Source of the DNA: Prevotella sp.
Lineage (GTDB): Bacteria; Bacteroidota; Bacteroidia; Bacteroidales; Bacteroidaceae
Length of the DNA: 64,000 nt
NCBI GenBank assembly: GCA_017462915.1
Contig: JAFTQG010000044.1
Location: forward strand, 1-64,000
Direction of reading: 5' to 3'
The notes under the pieces are model-generated. The model worked only from the letters and a program-made list of their open reading frames with translations, searched no databases and was not told the origin of the DNA. Within the stretch, counting starts at the first letter, position 1; each line of letters begins with the position of its first letter. This document shows, one piece after another, positions 1-60,201 of this stretch. The position numbers and the translations under genes were made by a program.

Positions 1-5
1 CATGC

Positions 6-70
6 GAGAGGTGACACTTCTCTATGTAAAAGGTGACCCTTTGCCATGCAAAGGTGACCCTCGGGAATGT
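6..70. repeat. 22-bp-period palindrome array A (3 units)
   Basis: Three units of the form GGTGACA/GGTGACC begin at 10, 32 and 53, so the steps are 22 and 21 bp. The flanks are A-rich to the left and CTTT-like to the right, as in the four other arrays of this window. The right flank of unit 2 (CCTTTGC, 38-44) pairs with the left flank of unit 3 (GCAAAGG, 48-54). The array sits just past the 3' end of the HAD phosphatase gene and may extend beyond the window edge. Function is unknown. Confidence 0.7.
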
Positions 71-7376: not shown

Positions 7377-8915
7377 ATGCTAATTCCAATTATTATAACA
7401 GCTGTTGCCGCATTGATTGTGGGAACAAGCGTGGGATACATCATTTTCCGATATGTCTTGAAAGGCAAGTATGGCGAGATGATTGCCACTGCCGAGAAAG
7501 AGGCGGAAGTAATGAAGGAGAAGAAACTCCTTGAAGTAAAGGCGAAATTCCTGAACAAGAAGAATGAACTTGAAAAGGAGTCACAGCACAGAAACCAGAA
7601 GCTCCAGCAGAGCGAACAGCGTGTACGTCAGCGTGAGCAGGAACTGAACAAGCACCAAAGTGAGCTTAACCGCAAGAGCCAGGAGCTTGAAAACGAGTCG
7701 AAGAAACTTGACAATGAGCGTAATCTTATTGCTGCCAAGACAGAAGAGCTTCAGAAGATGGAAGAGCAGGAACTGCATAAACTGGAGCAGATATCCGGTC
7801 TTTCTGCTGACGAGGCGAAAGCACGTCTTGTGGAGACTCTGAAGGACAAGGCACGTCTTGATGCACAGGCATATATCAATGACATTGTTGAGGAAGCTAA
7901 ACTCAATGCCAATCAGCAGGCACGCAAGATTGTTATCCAGACTATCCAGCGTACAGCCACAGAAACGGCTATTGAAAACAGTGTTTCTGTCTTCCATATT
8001 GATAATGACGAGGTAAAGGGCCGTATCATCGGACGTGAGGGTCGTAATATCCGTGCACTTGAAGCTGCTTGTGGTGTTGAAATCGTGGTTGATGATACGC
8101 CAGAGGCTATTGTTATCTCCGCTTTCGATCCTATCCGCCGTGAGATTTGCCGACTTGCACTGCATCAGCTCGTCGCTGACGGTCGAATACATCCGGCGCG
8201 TATCGAGGAAGTTGTAGCAAAGGTCAAGAAACAGCTTGACAATGAAATCATAGAGACAGGTAAGCGTACGACAATAGACCTTGGCATCCATGGTCTGCAT
8301 CCTGAGCTTGTACGTATCGTTGGTAAGATGAAGTATCGCTCTTCTTACGGCCAGAATCTGTTGCAGCATGCCCGTGAGACAGCCAATTTGTGTGCCGTTA
8401 TGGCAAGCGAGCTGGGACTTAATCCTAAGAAAGCCAAGCGTGCAGGTCTTCTCCATGATATAGGCAAGGTGCCTGATGAGGAGAATGAAATGCCACACGC
8501 TCTTTATGGTGCAAAGGTAGCGGAGAAGTATAAGGAGAAACCGGATATCTGCAATGCTATTGGTGCCCACCATGATGAGATGGAGATGCAGACGCTTCTC
8601 GCTCCGATTGTACAGGTCTGTGATGCAATATCCGGAGCTCGTCCTGGTGCCCGTCGCGAGATAGTCGAGGCTTACATCAAACGTCTTAATGACCTTGAGG
8701 CAATAGCTATGTCTTATCCAGGTGTGACGAAGACGTATGCTATTCAGGCTGGTCGAGAGCTCCGTGTCATTGTCGGTGCAGACAAGATGACTGACGCAGA
8801 GACAGAGGCTTTATCTGGAGAGATTGCAAACAAGATTCAGACAGAGATGACATATCCTGGACAGGTGAAGATTACAGTCATCCGTGAGACGCGCTCTGTT
8901 GCTTACGCAAAATAA
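7377..8915 (+). CDS. rny: Ribonuclease Y
   Basis: A 512-residue membrane-anchored endoribonuclease that begins mRNA decay. It has an N-terminal membrane segment (about residues 2-24), a long coiled coil to about 170, a KH RNA-binding domain with [15 protein letters not shown] (about 212-226), and an HD domain with [13 protein letters not shown] and LLHDIGKV containing the metal-binding His-Asp. Length matches the family. It is the last gene of the zapA operon, and a strong terminator follows at 8950. Confidence 0.96.
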
Positions 8916-9369: not shown

Positions 9370-10887
9370 TTACTGATGCTGTTCACGGAGCAGGTCGTTG
9401 ACGGTCTTTACAGGATTGAATGTGCCGAGTGGTACTTCAACGAAGATGGTGTTCCAGACGGACATCGCTCCGTTCCACAATCCAGGAAGCTCGAGAGCCT
9501 GCAGCTCCTTGCCGTTCTTTGACTTTGATGAGATGAATCCAGTTGTACGGTCTACATAATCAGGAAGGTTGAAAGCATTGCCCTTGTAGTCTTTCACTGC
9601 ACATACAAGGTCAACAGGGTTGAAATGTGTGCCCTCAGAGAAATACTTCATATACTGTTCATTCTTCTTGTCTATCTGGCTTGATTCCAAAATCTGGAGA
9701 GAATATGTACCGTCCTGATTATAAGCGAGGAACGGACCACCACCTGGTTCGCCGACATTCTTCACCATTCCTGCAACACGCATAGGGCGGTTAAGTTTTT
9801 TACGGAGATAGATAACCAAGTCGGCATCTTCAGGTTCCTTGATATCCGTTTTGCGGCAGCAGAGCTCATTCTGTACGAATTTTACAATCTCGATGAGCTT
9901 GTCGTGGTCATACTTTCCGGAATCAAGCAGTTCGAGATATTGGAAAGCCTGTTTCTGCAATGTCACAAGTACACCGGCAATTACCTGCTTCCATTCTGTT
10001 GTCTCTGGCTTCAAGCGGTCAGGAACGACATTGTCTATATTCTTCACGAAGATGATATCAGCACTGATGTCATTGAGGTTCTCTATAAGAGCTCCGTGAC
10101 CGCCTGGGCGGAACAGCAATGTTCCGTCTTCATTACGGAATGGAGTGCCGTCAGGGTTTGCGGCAACAGTGTCTGTTGAAGGCTTCTGCTCAGAGAATGA
10201 GATGTCGTATGTTATACCATATTTATTAGCGTAATAATCTGCTTTATCCGCAACTTTCTGCTTGAAGAATGCAAGATGCTCACTGGATACGGTAAAGTGT
10301 ACATTAGCCTCGCCGTTAGATGCAGCGTACAACGCGCCTTCTACCAGATGCTCCTCCATAGGAGTGCGTGCTCCTTCTTCATATTTATGGAAGAGCAACA
10401 TGCCTTTTGGCAACTGGCCGTAATTCAGACCATCTTTTGCAAGCATTCCTTTTGCAACAGACTTGTAATCTCCCTCTGCAATAAGCTCTTTCACTCCCTT
10501 GCCTTTCTGTTCTTTGAGGAGTGCGTCAAGAGCATCATAGAATGCGAAATGCTCGATATTGTCGAAATATTTCTTTTCAAAGTCCGTTGTCGGTACATCA
10601 TATTCTGCATCAACGAATGCGAACATGTCTTTGAACATTCTTGACGCGGCACCAGAGGCAGGCACGAACTTTACGATTTTCTTACCCTCGGCCTTGTAGT
10701 CGTCCCAAGCCTTTACATAGGTCTTCACTTCCTCTGCAGATGGAGCGACAATGCCTTTGCCGATTACTGCTGACCCTTCAAGTTTGAGGAATGGGAAACC
10801 GGTCTTGAATTCTCCAAGCTGTTGCTCGAGTTTCTCAGGTGTGATACCTTTGGCAGCGAGTTGCTGCAGATCTTTTTCTGATAACAT
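9370..10887 (-). CDS. DUF4301 family protein
   Basis: A 505-residue cytoplasmic protein of the Bacteroidetes-restricted DUF4301 family. I recognise the N-terminal pattern (SEKDLQQLAAKGI, then PFLKL) and the strongly conserved GGHGALIENLNDI and GEPGGGPFLAY blocks. The glycine-rich patches and FVPASGAASRMFK near the start suggest a nucleotide-sugar or phosphate-binding fold, but no activity is established that I can state. A -7 box TAATTTTG lies at 11018-11011, about 124 bp upstream. The gene is monocistronic, with terminator hairpins at its 3' side. Confidence 0.85.
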   Translation of the reverse strand: MLSEKDLQQLAAKGITPEKLEQQLGEFKTGFPFLKLEGSAVIGKGIVAPSAEEVKTYVKAWDDYKAEGKKIVKFVPASGAASRMFKDMFAFVDAEYDVPTTDFEKKYFDNIEHFAFYDALDALLKEQKGKGVKELIAEGDYKSVAKGMLAKDGLNYGQLPKGMLLFHKYEEGARTPMEEHLVEGALYAASNGEANVHFTVSSEHLAFFKQKVADKADYYANKYGITYDISFSEQKPSTDTVAANPDGTPFRNEDGTLLFRPGGHGALIENLNDISADIIFVKNIDNVVPDRLKPETTEWKQVIAGVLVTLQKQAFQYLELLDSGKYDHDKLIEIVKFVQNELCCRKTDIKEPEDADLVIYLRKKLNRPMRVAGMVKNVGEPGGGPFLAYNQDGTYSLQILESSQIDKKNEQYMKYFSEGTHFNPVDLVCAVKDYKGNAFNLPDYVDRTTGFISSKSKNGKELQALELPGLWNGAMSVWNTIFVEVPLGTFNPVKTVNDLLREQHQ

Positions 10888-17062: not shown

Positions 17063-18151
17063 TTAGAACTCCATTACCCAGCCGTCTGTGAAATGCTCTG
17101 ACTTGCTGCGGAGATTACGCAGGGAATCCATAGCCTCTTTCTCTGAAGCGAAGCGGCCATAGATGACTTTCGCTCCATTTCCACGTACCATTGTCTCTGC
17201 CTTGCCGAAGCCTTGGCCTTTCAGTCGCTTTACAAAATCATTGGCATTGGTCTCCGTTACTTTGCTGGCAAGGACAATGCTGAAGAAATGAGGCGCGGTC
17301 TCAGGTTCGGCAACAGTGTCTGGATGCTGTTCCGCCGGCATGGTGTCGGCCACCGTTTCCTTTGCCACAGGCTTTGCCTTCTGGAATATGATGTTCTTCT
17401 TGGCTGTGTCAGCGGCGCGCATCTGCTCGGGCAGGATGTTGTACAGTATGCCTGTGTCCATATAACTCTCCGATACGGCAGGCTTGTATGTCTGGCCGAT
17501 AGGGAGCGAGAAGATGAGCAATGCAAGGATTGTCGCGGCTATGGTGCCGACATACTTGATGGTGCTGACGCGTATGGAGATGGTGCGCTCCTCGTTGTCG
17601 CTGACGTGCTCGTCGTCTTCCGCATTTGTGGTGCTGGCACTCTGTGTGACAGCCAGTTGCGGAACAGGCTTAGGCTCCTGACGTGTGATGGCGGCAGGAG
17701 TGGCTGCTGTCTTGTCGGATATCGCTGTGGTGACAAGCGGAGTTATGTCTACAGTGTTGAGACCGTAAAGCGAAGGCGTGAGTATGCCTGCTTCGCAAGG
17801 CTCGAATTCAATCTTTCCGCTGGTGTTGAGGGTTAGCACTCCGATATCGTTGAGTTCACATTTTCCATCGTTGCGTATCTTCTGTTGCAGTTCGGTCACC
17901 TCTTCCTCTATACGGCGTAAGGCTTCTGGGTAGCTGATGTCGTATGCCTCTATATATGATTGCGCGAGGAGAGAGTCGTTTATCTGCAGTTGGGCGTTGA
18001 AGCCAAGCTGTCGCAAAGGTGGTAGAAAAGACTGGGTCTCAGTGTCATATCGTGCACAGACGTGATGAGCCATAAAGCCACCAAGCCCAGGGACAATGAC
18101 ACAGTCGTTGTCCAGGAGAAGTATTTCTATATGTCTATCCAGTCTGATCAC
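17063..18151 (-). CDS. HU-CCDC81-like and SPOR-domain protein
   Basis: A 362-residue single-pass membrane protein. Residues about 1-60 and 65-140 resemble the paired bacterial HU-CCDC81 domains of Bacteroidetes (RHIEILLLDNDCVIVPGLGGF; later LNDIGVLTLN). A membrane segment sits near 205-225 (VGTIAATILALLIFSLPIG). A linker follows, then a C-terminal SPOR domain (FFSIVLASKV to the end) that binds denuded peptidoglycan. The start is GTG at 18151. A minus-strand -7 box TACTTTTG lies at 18190-18183. It heads the leftward envelope cluster with the FHA and PorE-like genes, 139 bp ahead of the FHA gene. Confidence 0.82.
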   Translation of the reverse strand: MIRLDRHIEILLLDNDCVIVPGLGGFMAHHVCARYDTETQSFLPPLRQLGFNAQLQINDSLLAQSYIEAYDISYPEALRRIEEEVTELQQKIRNDGKCELNDIGVLTLNTSGKIEFEPCEAGILTPSLYGLNTVDITPLVTTAISDKTAATPAAITRQEPKPVPQLAVTQSASTTNAEDDEHVSDNEERTISIRVSTIKYVGTIAATILALLIFSLPIGQTYKPAVSESYMDTGILYNILPEQMRAADTAKKNIIFQKAKPVAKETVADTMPAEQHPDTVAEPETAPHFFSIVLASKVTETNANDFVKRLKGQGFGKAETMVRGNGAKVIYGRFASEKEAMDSLRNLRSKSEHFTDGWVMEF

Positions 18152-18377
18152 GTTGAAATTTGTGGGAAATAGATTGCGAGTGCAAAAGTAATAAAAATTG
18201 TTTAATTCCGCAAATAATCGGCAATAGTTTTTTGTTTTTTATATCCATTAAATCTATTTTTCAGGCTTCAGGATATGGGTGAGTTTTATGGTTAAATTTG
18301 GTAAAATTAACCAAAAGTAGGCAAACTCGGTGCCGTTTCTGTCTGATTATCGGGCAGTTTGTATACGTTATCACAGT

Positions 18378-18459
18378 GAGAGGTCACGTTTTATGTGGTT
18401 TTTCACTGTGTTTTTACGGATAAAAGGTCACCTTTTCCATCGCGAAAGGTTACCTTTTA
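18378..18459. repeat. 22-bp-period palindrome array B (4 units)
   Basis: Units start at 18382 (GGTCACG), 18404 (degenerate CACTGTG), 18426 (GGTCACC) and 18448 (GGTTACC), each exactly 22 bp apart. Flanks are A-rich on the left and TTTT on the right. The array lies in the 553-bp gap between the divergent HU/SPOR gene and rfbC, about 170 bp upstream of the rfbC promoter. The rest of the gap holds the two promoters and AT-rich sequence. Confidence 0.8.
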
Positions 18460-18631
18460 GCCTGTTTGCCGTAACGTATTATTGCCTATGAAAATGTAAC
18501 TTACAGAAAGACAGGTGGTTGGTGAATGTGTGTAAATTTGGGAAATTCACGCTTGAAATGCGCTGCGAAGGAAATATTCAATTCTCACAGGGCAATAAAT
18601 GCTTGAGTTTTCTATAAAAATGTTCAAAATA

Positions 18632-18704: not shown

Positions 18705-19256
18705 ATGGAGTATATAAAGACTGCAATAGAAGGCGTATATATCATTCAGCCAAAAGTGTTTAATGACCAGCGCGGATATTTCTTCGAGTCATTCCGCCAG
18801 TCGGATTTCGATGCTAATGTCGGTGGTCATACGGAGTTCATTCAGGACAACGAGTCGAAATCAAGCTATGGTGTTCTCCGCGGACTTCATTACCAGAAGG
18901 GCGAGTTCTCTCAGGCAAAGCTTGTCCGTGTGATAAAGGGTCGCGTGCTTGACGTTGCCGTTGACATCCGCAAAGGGTCACCGACGTTCGGCAAATATGT
19001 CATGGTGGAACTTAGCGGTGACAACAAGACGCAGTTCTTTATACCGAGAGGTTTCGCACATGGTTTCCTTGTGCTTAGCGACGAGGCTGTCTTTACATAT
19101 AAGGTGGACAATGTCTATGCACCGCAGAGTGAGGCGAGCATCCGCTTCGACGACCCTGACATTAATATCGAGTGGCCTATCGACGCGAAGGATATCCTTA
19201 CCAGCGAGAAGGACATGAAAGCAAAATGGCTTAAGGACGCAGAAGTCTTTGAGTGA
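18705..19256 (+). CDS. rfbC: dTDP-4-dehydrorhamnose 3,5-epimerase
   Basis: A 183-residue cupin enzyme of the dTDP-rhamnose pathway. It shows the family start (GVYIIQPKVFNDQRGYFFESF), the catalytic His in LRGLHYQ, the DVAVDIRKGSPTFGKY strand pair and the PRGFAHGFLVLSDEAVFTYKV block. Length is normal. It is separated from rfbA (3.5 kb) by more than 14 kb and has its own promoter. The next gene, a lipoprotein, follows after 86 bp on the same strand. Confidence 0.95.
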   Translation: MEYIKTAIEGVYIIQPKVFNDQRGYFFESFRQSDFDANVGGHTEFIQDNESKSSYGVLRGLHYQKGEFSQAKLVRVIKGRVLDVAVDIRKGSPTFGKYVMVELSGDNKTQFFIPRGFAHGFLVLSDEAVFTYKVDNVYAPQSEASIRFDDPDINIEWPIDAKDILTSEKDMKAKWLKDAEVFE

Positions 19257-20254: not shown

Positions 20255-20520
20255 TCAAGGGATTTGCTTAAGGGAAAGAAAAATGGGCCGTACTGTGATT
20301 GTGATGAAAACTCCTTGGTATAGGTAGAGTGCCTTGTACCTTTGTAATCCACCGGCTCTTGATATGGCTTGGAGCAGGACAGAGGTGAGGTTTGAAGGAC
20401 AAGTCTCGACAGTGACCTCGCGATAACCGGCTCCGTTGTGGCCCGCCATTGAGTACACGCGTTCTCAGTTTTCTTAGATTATTTGATGAGTTCCCCGATC
20501 TAACCAGTACGACCCAAGTG
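20255..20520. other. GC-richer unexplained intergenic stretch (small ORF or RNA)
   Basis: Between the 20201 terminator and the aspS promoter lies about 200 bp clearly richer in G+C than the AT-rich sequence around it. On the minus strand it holds an intact 67-codon frame (20255-20458). On the plus strand it can form short stems, such as GAGGT (about 20379) with ACCTC (about 20414). It has no promoter box I can defend. It may be a small conserved gene, a structured RNA or a gene remnant; I cannot decide. Confidence 0.25.
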
Positions 20521-30799: not shown

Positions 30800-30917
30800 A
30801 TCACGCTGTCCTTGACAGATATTACAGTCTTAGCATGATTATGCGGACGATATATGGAGTCTATCGTTCTTTCTCTCTGTAACATCTTGATTTTTATGAC
30901 GTTCGGACAGGTATCGT

Positions 30918-30999
30918 GAAAGGTCACCTTTCGGGCGGCTAAACATCACCCTTTACCGAGTCAAGTGTCACCTTCCTACATATAAAAGGTGACACTTGA
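30918..30999. repeat. 22-bp-period palindrome array C (4 units)
   Basis: Units start at 30922 (GGTCACC), 30944 (CATCACC), 30966 (TGTCACC) and 30988 (GGTGACA), all exactly 22 bp apart. Units 3 and 4 are exact reverse complements over 14 bases (30961-30974 and 30986-30999), including their departures from the consensus. The array lies in the 323-bp gap between the GHL10 gene and wza, about 70 bp upstream of the wza -33 box. The rest of the gap is AT-rich. Confidence 0.85.
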
Positions 31000-31069
31000 C
31001 AGATTGGAGGCTTACCGCTTTGTTTTACTGTCATTAAATATGTGTGTTATATACTTTTCTTTTGAAAAG

Positions 31070-31101
31070 TTTGGATGTTATTTCAAAAATTATTATCTTT
31101 G
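31070..31101 (+). promoter_or_regulatory. Promoter of wza
   Basis: TTTG (31070-31073), a 20-base spacer and TATCTTTG (31094-31101), 21 bp before the ATG at 31123. It excludes the upstream in-frame ATG at 31075 as the start. Confidence 0.8.
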
Positions 31102-31122
31102 CAGAAAATTTTTACTTTACAT

Positions 31123-31884
31123 ATGAAAAAAATATATCAGATTCTCTATATTGCGATGGCTATCGTTATGCTTGCCAGCTGTGGCTCGTCCAAGGATGTT
31201 GTCTATTTCCAGAATGCTGACGAGATTAGTGTTGAAGCGTCACGCATGTTGTATGACGCAAAGATAATGCCGAAAGACCAGTTGACTATATTCATCCACA
31301 CCACAGACCCGCAGGCCTCTGCTCCGTTTAATGTCTCGGCGTCCGCTCCTCAAGGGGTAGGGTATCTTGTCGACAATGAAGGAAATATTGATTTTCCTGT
31401 TTTGGGAAAGCTTCATGTTGGTGGTATGACAAGAACACAGTGTCAGGAGATGATTGCAGGCAGGCTGAAGCCGTATCTTGCTGAAGGTGAGAACCCGATG
31501 GTGACGGTTGGAATGTCCAGTTATCGTGTGACAGTCCTTGGAGAAGTGTCAAGTCCGCAGGTGGTTCCTGTTACGACGGAGAAGATGAGTATCCTTGAGG
31601 CGATAGCTACTGCTGGCGACCTTACTATTTACGGAAAGCGTGACAATGTATTGCTTATAAGGGAAAAGGAGACGGGCGAGAAGGAGATGCACAGGCTTAA
31701 TCTTACGGATGCAAATCTCATCAATTCCCCTTATTACTATCTGCAGCAGAATGATGTCGTTTATGTAGAACCAAATAAGGCGAAGGCGAAAAACGCATCT
31801 ATAAGCACCTCCACAACAATATGGCTGTCAATCGCCTCAACATTGCTCTCCATGACATCAGTTATAATAAGTATTGCAAAATGA
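31123..31884 (+). CDS. Polysaccharide export outer-membrane lipoprotein (Wza-type)
   Basis: A 253-residue lipoprotein: signal peptide with lipobox MLASC (Cys20), polysaccharide biosynthesis/export domain (MPKDQLTIFIHTTDPQASAPFNV), SLBB-type soluble ligand-binding beta-grasp domains (YRVTVLGEVSSPQVVPV, then EKMSILEAIATAGDLT), and a C-terminal hydrophobic helix (about 230-250). It forms the outer-membrane channel through which polysaccharide leaves the cell. In most clusters it adjoins the autokinase; here that gene is 28 kb away. Terminator at 31888. Confidence 0.92.
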   Translation: MKKIYQILYIAMAIVMLASCGSSKDVVYFQNADEISVEASRMLYDAKIMPKDQLTIFIHTTDPQASAPFNVSASAPQGVGYLVDNEGNIDFPVLGKLHVGGMTRTQCQEMIAGRLKPYLAEGENPMVTVGMSSYRVTVLGEVSSPQVVPVTTEKMSILEAIATAGDLTIYGKRDNVLLIREKETGEKEMHRLNLTDANLINSPYYYLQQNDVVYVEPNKAKAKNASISTSTTIWLSIASTLLSMTSVIISIAK

Positions 31885-41013: not shown

Positions 41014-41142
41014 TTAGTGGTTCAGGGTTTTAGGTTTTTGGTTGAATACCCATAACTTTGGTTTTAGGTCTTTGGTTTTAGGTTTTTGGTTAATTACCCA
41101 CAACCTACAACCCATAACCTACAACCCATAACCTACAACCCC
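41014..41142. repeat. Mirrored G/T-rich and A/C-rich tandem repeats
   Basis: The left part has an 18-base block (GGTTTTAGG then TTTTTGGTT) twice, at 41026-41043 and 41074-41091, 48 bp apart. The right part has ACCTACAACCCATA at 41103-41116 and 41117-41130 plus a partial third copy. GGTTTTAGGTT on the left can pair with AACCTACAACC on the right, so the stretch folds as an imperfect hairpin. It fills the gap between the nuclease gene and rsmE. Confidence 0.75.
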
Positions 41143-45909: not shown

Positions 45910-45940
45910 TTATTTTCGGTGATGTAAGTCCCTTTGCATC

Positions 45941-46020
45941 AAAGTGTGACCTTTCATATTATAAAGTGTCACATTTTATAATATGAAGGGTTACCTTTTG
46001 CAAGTCAAAAGGTAACCCTC
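45941..46020. repeat. 22-bp-period palindrome array D (4 units)
   Basis: Units start at 45945 (TGTGACC), 45967 (TGTCACA), 45989 (GGTTACC) and 46011 (GGTAACC), each 22 bp apart. Units 3 and 4 form a perfect 14-base inverted pair (AGGGTTACCTTTTG with CAAAAGGTAACCCT). It lies in the 876-bp gene-poor gap before gluQ. That gap also holds the 45385 palindrome and MITE copy 2; from 46021 to 46206 I see nothing further. Confidence 0.85.
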
Positions 46021-46206
46021 GTTTCTCGCTGAGAATCAACATGTTTGATGTAAAATATCCCTTCGGTTGCAGAAATCGCATTTTCAGCCATCATTTTTGG
46101 CCGCATTTTGCATTATATCTTATCGTGACTTAACCGATGCAAATTTCTTGGGAATATCCCATAGGTCTCATGTCGGTATTTCTCCATTTGCGGAATGGCA
46201 TCGTGG

Positions 46207-58991: not shown

Positions 58992-59087
58992 TGTCATGAA
59001 AATGCGTTATTTTGCTGGTTTTGCTATATTGTTGATAGCCAGTAGGTAACGGTCGATAGTGTGCGGGTGCTTTATTGAACGTGTGGC

Positions 59088-59147
59088 GAAAGGTGACCTT
59101 TTACATCGAAAAAGGTCACCTTTTATATGACAGAAGGTTATCATTTG
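59088..59147. repeat. 22-bp-period palindrome array E (3 units)
   Basis: Units start at 59092 (GGTGACC), 59114 (GGTCACC) and 59136 (GGTTATC), each 22 bp apart. Units 1 and 2 are exact reverse complements with their AAA/TTT flanks. The array lies in the 580-bp gap between the ATP-grasp-like gene and the cyclophilin gene. The gap also holds the 58956 hairpin and the cyclophilin promoter at 59320. Confidence 0.85.
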
Positions 59148-59319
59148 TCTCCCGAATCGGCATGTTTTGCTGCCAAAACATGCTGTTTTTCTATTGAAAA
59201 CCGTATAAATATGCTTTGCAGAGTGGTGTGAATTGCCATTTGTACTCTCGGTTTCCCGATTATGATAAACAGCGCATGAGAAAACTCATGTAAATCATTT
59301 GAATTTTTCATGTCCGGAT

Positions 59320-59350: not shown

Positions 59351-59469
59351 CAACGTATATGGAAATATGGAAGTTGTGGCAGGTGTTTGGCACACTATGA
59401 TGTCGGGTGAGACACGCATCTGCTTCTGTATGAAAATCATTATATTATGTAATATCAAATAAAATCGTG

Positions 59470-60201
59470 ATGAAAAATTTTGATTATATAGCCTCTCGGC
59501 TTCGTGCCATGCAGGCAATCGTTGCCTCCATGGTGGTCTTCATGGCATTCTCTGTCTCTGTTTCAGCCCAGAATGGTGATGACGGCAGGACACAGATAAT
59601 GATAGAGACAACAATGGGAAACATCAAGGTCGTACTGTATGACGAGACACCGCTTCACAGTAACAATTTCAAGTCGCTTGTGAACCGTGGATTCTACGAC
59701 GGCGTGCTGTTTCATAGAGTCATAAACAAGTTCATGATTCAGGCAGGAGACTCCACAAGCCGCTCTGCCAGTCCAGGAGAACTACTCGGCGATGCGACGG
59801 AACCTTATACGATTCCTGCGGAAATCCGTTATCCCGAAATCCTGCATAAACGCGGAGCACTGTGTATGGCGCGTGAAGGAGACAATGTCAATCCGCAGAG
59901 AGTTTCTTCAGCGTATCAGTTCTATATCGTGTATGGAACGCGCTTTGACGACAACATGCTTGACCGTGTGCAGGCACGTCTTGACGCGACAACGGGAGGG
60001 AGCGTCGTACTCAGTCCCGAGGTCAGGGACGTTTACAAGCGTATTGGCGGAACGCCACATCTTGACGGCCAGTATACCGTTTTCGGAGAGGTCGTCGAGG
60101 GAATCGATATCGTGAGGAATATACAATGGATTGACACAGATGCCAATGACCGTCCGCTGACTGATGTCCGCATCATCAAGGCGTATGAGGTTACGCGATA
60201 A
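59470..60201 (+). CDS. Cyclophilin-type peptidyl-prolyl cis-trans isomerase, exported
   Basis: A 243-residue protein with an N-terminal signal sequence (AIVASMVVFMAFSVSVSAQ), so it acts in the periplasm or envelope. The cyclophilin core starts TTMGNIKVVLYDETPLHSNNFKSLVNRGFYDGVLFHRVINKFMIQAGD, with catalytic Arg in FHRV. A family-specific insertion of about 45 residues (LLGDATEPYTIPAEIRYPEILHKRGALCMAR) and another near residue 170 lengthen it. The core closes with DGQYTVFGEVVEGIDIVRNI. The ATG at 59470 is used rather than the GTG one codon before. Confidence 0.92.
   Translation: MKNFDYIASRLRAMQAIVASMVVFMAFSVSVSAQNGDDGRTQIMIETTMGNIKVVLYDETPLHSNNFKSLVNRGFYDGVLFHRVINKFMIQAGDSTSRSASPGELLGDATEPYTIPAEIRYPEILHKRGALCMAREGDNVNPQRVSSAYQFYIVYGTRFDDNMLDRVQARLDATTGGSVVLSPEVRDVYKRIGGTPHLDGQYTVFGEVVEGIDIVRNIQWIDTDANDRPLTDVRIIKAYEVTR

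Follow-up and report, generated by a model that had tools for sequence, protein, structure and literature searches.

The window analysed here is a stretch of 64,000 nucleotides that begins at base 1 of its contig (C24) in the genome of a Prevotella sp., which we call G000 (other G numbers denote compared genomes, and L numbers denote fetched loci). It holds five arrays of short palindromes repeated at 22 bp, all of them between genes, as an earlier note on this DNA had proposed. The core AAAGGTNACCTTT occurs 16 times in the window at up to two mismatches, against 2.25 expected, and 16 was reached in none of 100 shuffles. The arrays and the features that adjoin them are as follows.

1..66, no strand: array A, with 13-bp cores at 7-19, 29-41 and 50-62, in steps of 22 and 21 bp
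17063..18151, minus strand: protein with HU-CCDC81 and SPOR domains, adjoining array B (given as context; a link to the arrays is not implied)
18374..18461, no strand: array B, with units centred on 18385, 18429 and 18451 and a degenerate slot centred on 18407
18705..19256, plus strand: dTDP-4-dehydrorhamnose 3,5-epimerase family, adjoining array B
30875..30909, no strand: IHF-like dyad at array C, score 21, with the GTAACATCTTGAT half strong and the other half weak
30914..31001, no strand: array C, with four units centred on 30925, 30947, 30969 and 30991
31075..31884, plus strand: polysaccharide export protein family, adjoining array C
45937..46024, no strand: array D, with four units centred on 45948, 45970, 45992 and 46014
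46017..46051, no strand: weak IHF-like dyad at array D, score 20 (random intergenic places reaching 20: 20/318)
59084..59171, no strand: array E, with units centred on 59095, 59117 and 59139 and a weak fourth slot at 59161
59467..60201, plus strand: cyclophilin family, adjoining array E

The 13-bp cores start at 18379, 18423 and 18445 in array B (with the slot at 18401 degenerate), at 30919, 30941, 30963 and 30985 in array C, at 45942, 45964, 45986 and 46008 in array D, and at 59089, 59111 and 59133 in array E. Array A is truncated at base 1 of the contig and may lack another unit. The earlier note correctly gave array C four units, but its unit starts (30922, 30944, 30966 and 30988) fall 4 bp late for the 15-bp form of the unit. 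Nor is array C the cleanest, as had been thought: its cores carry 0, 3, 3 and 2 mismatches, and arrays B and E hold two perfect units each. The same layout does recur at the four other loci, although A, B and E do not fill four slots. The gaps between arrays, 18.4, 12.5, 15.0 and 13.1 kb, agree with the 12-18 kb first estimated.

Other features of the window were recorded in passing. A homolog of the HU-CCDC81 and SPOR domain protein (17063-18151, minus strand) was matched in all 19 relatives searched, and the protein is a possible link from DNA to septum. The Bacteroidales-1 RNA (RF01693, suggested to be the 6S RNA of Bacteroidales) lies at 20280-20514 on the minus strand (81.9 bits). Positions 41056-41141 hold 7/14-bp tandem repeats, CTTTGGTTTTAGGT and ACCCATAACCTACA, of telomere-like look, and a similar repeat, GGTTTTGGGTTGT, adjoins an array on another contig (C16:64014).

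Anatomy and spacing of the arrays

Across the whole G000 assembly (2.93 Mb, 59 contigs), AAAGGTNACCTTT matches 260 sites with at most one mismatch, and the same pattern reversed matches 8. Pairs of GGTNACC at any period from 9 to 38 bp number 149 (4 in the control); a search at exactly 22 bp gave 143 (2 in the control). The excess of cores over chance and the fixed period on which the earlier note had staked its claim are thus both seen at the scale of the genome. Within 460,647 bases (16% of the assembly), the spacings between sites with up to three mismatches are 22 bp (69 pairs) and 44 bp (44 pairs), with no other spacing seen more than three times. A matrix built from 76 units and applied as four slots at 22 bp, the kind of scan that had been suggested, recovered 30 arrays from this portion, whereas its reversed sequence gave none. 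By extrapolation, a G000 genome would hold about 190 arrays.

The unit of G000 reads AAA(A/G)GGTNACC(T/C)TTT, with a free centre that is mostly C or G, and the spacer shows only a weak tendency. In 25 of the 30 arrays every slot has a positive score (C30:56305 among these only weakly), and the remaining five have a poor inner slot (two arrays) or a poor or missing end slot (three). There is no fifth unit: the slot beyond the fourth unit is negative in all 30 arrays, and the slot preceding the first unit is negative in 29 of 29, the thirtieth array touching a contig end. In one array a sixth slot scores weakly positive.

None of the 30 arrays overlaps a called gene, the calls coming from a simple codon-usage caller with a coding fraction of 72-78% that can miss genes. 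The arrays are also evenly spaced. In G000, 24 array-to-array gaps have a mean of 15.9 kb and a coefficient of variation (CV) of 0.43, compared with 0.91 for random intergenic placement, and none of 5000 random trials reached the observed value. Gaps shorter than 7.5 kb are absent where 9.1 would be expected. Pooled stretches of G274, G343, G160, G056, G209 and G293 gave a CV of 0.27 against 0.78 (0/5000 trials); this pooling took one stretch per genome and the dominant core family alone, left out matches to other families and a 21-bp repeat of G293, and included two arrays, among the five of G160, that are copies of each other. The exception is G271, where arrays lie closer together (some gaps are as short as 2.1 kb) and evenness is less clear (54/5000).

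An IHF-like dyad and the gene context

The consensus for binding of IHF is WATCAANNNNTTR. Outward of the array end, 29 sequences from four genomes define a dyad, TTTNTAA-N4-YTGATNATCAR-N4-TTACAAA, of which the central 11 columns were the selection seed and the outer TAA and TTACAAA were unselected. These flank sequences show ATCAA-N4-TTA on both halves of the dyad, the TTA at N4 being unselected. Each half reads as the IHF consensus, so the whole might suit a symmetric IHF-like dimer. The distance between end unit and dyad centre is 31 or 35 bp for 18 of 23 dyads in G271 and 23-24 bp for 4 of 6 in G343; for the eight best of G000 it varies between 22 and 60 bp. The dyad is mostly one-sided, standing on both sides in 1/23 (G271), 0/6 (G343) and 2/5 (P. 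bivia). The six dyad-bearing arrays of G343 (L254-L258, L189-L190) also have a GAAATA..TTTACA-like repeat in the same direction on both sides, at a roughly fixed distance.

At a score of at least 20, the dyad accompanies 23/40 arrays in G271 (9/307 random intergenic places), 6/7 in G343 (3/87) and 5/6 in P. bivia (12/80), counts that are partly circular because the consensus came from these genomes. G000 was absent from the matrix input, and there the dyad is weak: 8/32 arrays reach 20 (20/318 random places) and 4/32 reach 22 (0/318). In G056 it is absent at the threshold of 20 (1/7 arrays, 8/86 random intergenic places).

An IHF-like site beside palindromes invites the explanation that a global transcription regulator uses the arrays as operators or enhancers, possibly with IHF bringing an activator to promoters, as in sigma-54 systems. 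Palindromes are typical of dimeric regulators, the IHF-like site adjoins many arrays in some species, and the several core families per genome (described below) resemble paralogous regulators. Of the 27 G000 arrays with both neighbours, 8 lie in divergent and 10 in tandem gaps; however, the other 9 lie between convergent genes, where promoters are unexpected (general G000 gaps of at least 150 bp, n = 150: 27 convergent, 32 divergent, 91 tandem). The dyad side in G271 likewise bears no relation to the gene end that it faces (6/4/6/6 of 22), gene starts (12) and stops (10) being faced about equally, and even spacing would not be expected of a regulon. We regard the operator explanation as unlikely, and the even spacing and neutral gene context better suit the chromosome-organising distribution that the earlier note had put forward.

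Conservation and change of the cores among relatives

The exact single core occurs 84 times in G000; across 150 other family genomes, 9 of which belong to the genus, the count per genome is 0 to 3. In a count over 200 genomes of the genus, G000 included, the paired core was frequent in G209 (150), G293 (56), G274 (42), G227 (11) and G214 (10), the others having at most 6.

Among these close relatives, arrays do occur at matching positions, the outcome that the earlier note had looked for. Array B is kept in synteny in G209, G293 and G274, and arrays C and E recur in synteny in G274. All 26 ortholog pairs between G000 and G209 (taken to be Prevotella sp. SC0317) agree in whether they flank an array (8 in both, 18 in neither), for loci that had been fetched because they hold the pattern. 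G274 has in addition an array between homologs of the window genes 7377-8915 and 9370-10887 that is absent in G000 and G209. When arrays B, C and E are aligned, the units hold their 22-bp register amid scrambled flanks and spacers. For five orthologous arrays in G209, whose loci were partly selected for intact cores, the core arms differ at 27/280 positions and the spacers at 42/140 (p 2.9e-7), with 9/20 for centres and 143/708 for flanks. For two orthologous arrays in a G274 stretch picked by synteny, the values are 20/109 for arms and 24/56 for spacers (p 0.0014), with 7/8 for centres and 52/194 for flanks. Unit cores therefore evolve slower than spacers, and the conserved core and variable spacers described from the window alone extend to divergence between genomes. 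At a greater distance, positions are not kept: between G000 and G271, 0/34 ortholog pairs flank arrays in both genomes, and six do so on each side alone.

In other relatives the layout persists with other letters. A scan of 17 genomes for any palindrome repeated four times, at periods of 15-41, gave 49 unfiltered matches at 22 bp and at most five at any other period except 41 bp (25 matches, all in G271). The 22-bp cores found are listed below.

G056: TTTTCATGAAAA
P. bivia (taken to be G160): AAAAGGTTACCTTTT
G271: GCAAAAGCTAAGAAAACG, 383 sites versus 1
G343: AAACGGNCCGTTT, arrays spaced 12.2, 11.9, 10.7 and 21.0 kb
G135: TTTTGTACAAAA
G005: CAASTTG

Single arrays with a 23-bp period occur in G001 and G109, and related-core arrays occur in the named genomes of Palleniella muris, P. 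intestinalis, Prevotella corporis and Xylanibacter caecicola (one locus). Some genomes combine several families: in G271 there are also GGGAGRTSAYCTCCCG arrays (6 in 500 kb) and one TCAAAACACGGTCTTTTGA array, G056 has a second family of GTGCGGAGCNTCCGCAC arrays, and GTCTTATAAGAC arrays occur once in G000 and once in P. bivia. The GTCTTATAAGAC array of G000 has four units at 22 bp (contig C30 at 100640; L010:636-702) beside a gene that, by our own reading of its sequence, would encode a two-component-type AraC regulator; that of P. bivia adjoins other genes. Some small families, such as four GTCTTATAAGAC units beside a regulator gene, could be ordinary operators. Several arrays of G271 (L156-L160, L210-L229) directly adjoin series of CTCCTTACTACTT-type repeats. 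The change of core from species to species and the several families per genome, like the four-slot limit and the IHF-like dyad, go beyond what the earlier note had described.

Searches elsewhere delimit the distribution. No 22-bp array was found in 100 kb of G194, of the same genus, nor in 40 kb each of G142, G064, G053 and G146 at the threshold of the any-palindrome scan, and 20 kb each of five genomes from other families of the class held none, a sample too small to exclude them. The search for the paired core in other taxa found at least 106 stretches, 51 of which were scanned by themselves. Nocardioides, Paenibacillus, Pedobacter, a Bacilli MAG and some Bacteroidales MAGs gave single loci of tandem repeats at 22 or 11 bp whose spacers are conserved, apparently not arrays of the G000 kind. 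One MAG that is labelled Bacillota (JAMPFD; L072, L078, L085, L090, L091, L093, L113) has arrays of the Prevotella type and a protein sharing 95% identity with one of G000, and is probably mislabelled. Among 20 viral-contig matches of the paired core, 19 had no such palindromic array at 21-23 bp (three of these are AT-rich and of low complexity), and one viral contig (L131:4930-5050) has units of a different core, AAGGTAACCGATACCTT, at 22 bp with a fixed centre and variable spacers of 4-5 bp. A blastn search with one array gave two weak matches in plasmids (E 3 and 9) and none in phages.

Copying of whole arrays was seen in two genomes. Two arrays of P. bivia (38936 and 52794; L161-L165) are copies 14 kb apart, 98% identical along a segment of 257 bp that starts at the left unit and ends within the right flank, and copied arrays in G343 share 85% identity over 195 bp. 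Tn7 and Mu have 22-bp transposase-binding sites, and the arrays might similarly be non-autonomous mobile elements, with transposase-binding ends spread under target immunity. Besides the copies, the 22-bp sites, the IHF-like neighbour, the several families per genome, the common flanking repeats in G343 and the turnover of positions between distant species would fit such elements, and target immunity would explain the even spacing with its minimum gap. Against this, positions are kept in close relatives, and neither inspection by eye nor 8-mer counts revealed common ends in the sequences flanking 30 G000 arrays. Moreover, copies in G000 have common cores but unshared spacers and central bases, with cores changing slower, and an origin from transposon ends would not explain conserved cores among unshared spacers. 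We therefore think a mobile-element nature quite unlikely.

Possible function and comparison with known systems

The reading that we prefer, and hold with about even confidence from the pattern of sites, is that the arrays are platforms of a putative oligomeric DNA-binding protein that anchors chromosome loops. Four sites at a spacing of two helical turns could accommodate four dimers along a single face of the DNA: each array would bind one sequence-specific dimeric protein, the 22-bp period (about two turns) would place the dimers on the same side, and the four could assemble into an octamer or into a stack of four dimers. A protein of the HU/IHF type would be expected, in some species, to bend the adjoining DNA. 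A structural role would be in keeping with the neutral gene context, the even spacing and the slowly changing core, and the roughly 190 complexes extrapolated for G000 would serve as regularly placed anchors, folding or insulating the chromosome as loops of some 15 kb.

Relatives keep the layout and change the letters of the palindrome, which suggests a set of anchor sites organising the chromosome. A fixed geometry with changing letters would imply a protein conserved in its assembly rather than in its base contacts; its recognition surface would have changed between species and its assembly surface been kept. Several observations weigh against loop anchors: the dyad is weak and at variable distance in G000 and absent in G056, G271 is denser and less clearly even, positions are unshared with G271, one array of G274 lacks a G000 counterpart, and none was found in 100 kb of G194. 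More tentatively, and with less confidence than for the arrays of G000, chromosomes of Bacteroidaceae (at least of many Prevotella) may be punctuated by evenly spaced four-dimer loop anchors or insulators, whose recognition would turn over fast between species, as that of PRDM9 does in mammals, under a fixed geometry, with several paralogous anchor proteins of different cores per genome. If true, a major gut and oral lineage would have a chromosome-wide, regularly spaced protein-binding system, and the spacing of loop domains becomes testable at known coordinates. The puzzle is how some 190 arrays, by extrapolation, hold one core in a species and another in its relatives with the 22-bp four-slot geometry constant.

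Candidate proteins were sought among known families. Lrp/AsnC was not supported, as its recognition helix is identical across species with different cores: SRAAIHQRVQ in one paralog (G000, G056, G160, G293 and G005) and SGAAIHQRIQ in another (G000, G056, G293 and G343), in a comparison that left out 10 of 24 rows. Genes for YbaB/EbfC and SpoVG were found in 0/13 and 0/11 genomes, respectively, and these proteins were likewise set aside. A Noc-like ParB paralog was not supported either: 8 of 10 genomes have one ParB_N match, so array bearers have no such paralog in common. A ParB alignment was read with the G000 row left out.

Chromosome-wide dispersal, palindromes and an intergenic location are also what sites of nucleoid occlusion or segregation would show, functionally like Noc/NBS, SlmA/SBS or matS. 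Against such sites stand the single ParB_N match just described and the lack of a clear origin-terminus trend in the complete genome of G271, where array counts in 25 stretches give rho -0.29 (p 0.16). Units occur in both orientations across these stretches, which rules out a replichore polarity, and the link to replication raised in the earlier note is not borne out. An occlusion or segregation role has, in our judgement, a low probability, similar to that of mobile elements. The systems built on matS/MatP, NBS/Noc and SBS/SlmA have mostly single sites, one core per group and one organising protein. The arrays are like them in being short palindromes dispersed over the chromosome, and unlike them in forming arrays whose core differs between species.

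Of described systems, those most alike in kind are BIME-1 elements of enterobacteria and a MITE of Porphyromonas gingivalis. BIME-1 (RIB) consists of extragenic palindromes in composite arrays with an IHF site, and a role in chromosome organisation has been proposed (PMC2817692). As described there, the likeness lies in extragenic palindromic repeats in high copy, in arrays, with an IHF-like site; the 22-bp period, the four-slot limit, the conservation of the core only and the even spacing of the G000 arrays set ours apart from that description. Y1 transposases (PF01797) are present in G160, G271, G343 and G194, and each of the two G271 genes (L312, L315) lies no more than about 1.3 kb from a 22-bp array, which in one case belongs to the main family and in the other has another core; no 22-bp array was found near the six copies of G160, G343 and G194. 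Y1 transposases were not found in G000, G209, G293, G274 and G056, where arrays are frequent, and this absence in 5/9 genomes does not support a RAYT transposase as mobiliser. No GTAG or CGTC tag is apparent at the palindrome foot in the G000 unit matrix. That RAYT transposases spread the arrays as REP/BIME-like repeats, some of them IHF-binding as in BIME-1, is very improbable: regular arrays of palindromes with an IHF-like site, many copies, species-specific cores and the Y1 genes of four of nine genomes would fit, but copies have cores rather than whole repeats in common, and the known RAYT mechanism is already contradicted in G000 by the absence of a Y1 transposase.

Within Bacteroidales, the BrickBuilt MITE of Porphyromonas gingivalis is an intergenic 23-nt tandem repeat described with 19 copies, a leader and a tail, and no spacers (PMC4596501). 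On that description it shares with our arrays a similar period, an intergenic location and a Bacteroidales host, and differs from the G000 arrays in that these have variable spacers and no common leader or tail that we could see. Among the open-access papers listed by our literature searches, none was seen to describe such arrays, and the word Prevotella is absent from the main text of two surveys of extragenic palindromes, of 2025 (PMC12306157) and 2013 (PMC3733652).

Two further systems resemble the arrays in their geometry. Plasmid iterons, for example those of the R6K gamma origin, are 22-bp direct repeats at one origin beside an IHF site. The arrays likewise combine 22-bp repeats with an IHF-like site, and unlike iterons they are palindromes at an estimated 190 chromosomal places. 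In operators of Lrp/AsnC octamers, as in the arrays, four palindromic sites suit four dimers; the recognition helix of the shared paralogs, however, is constant while the cores differ. Taken together, these comparisons suggest that the arrays join the dispersed protein-binding sites of bacterial chromosomes as an apparently undescribed variant.
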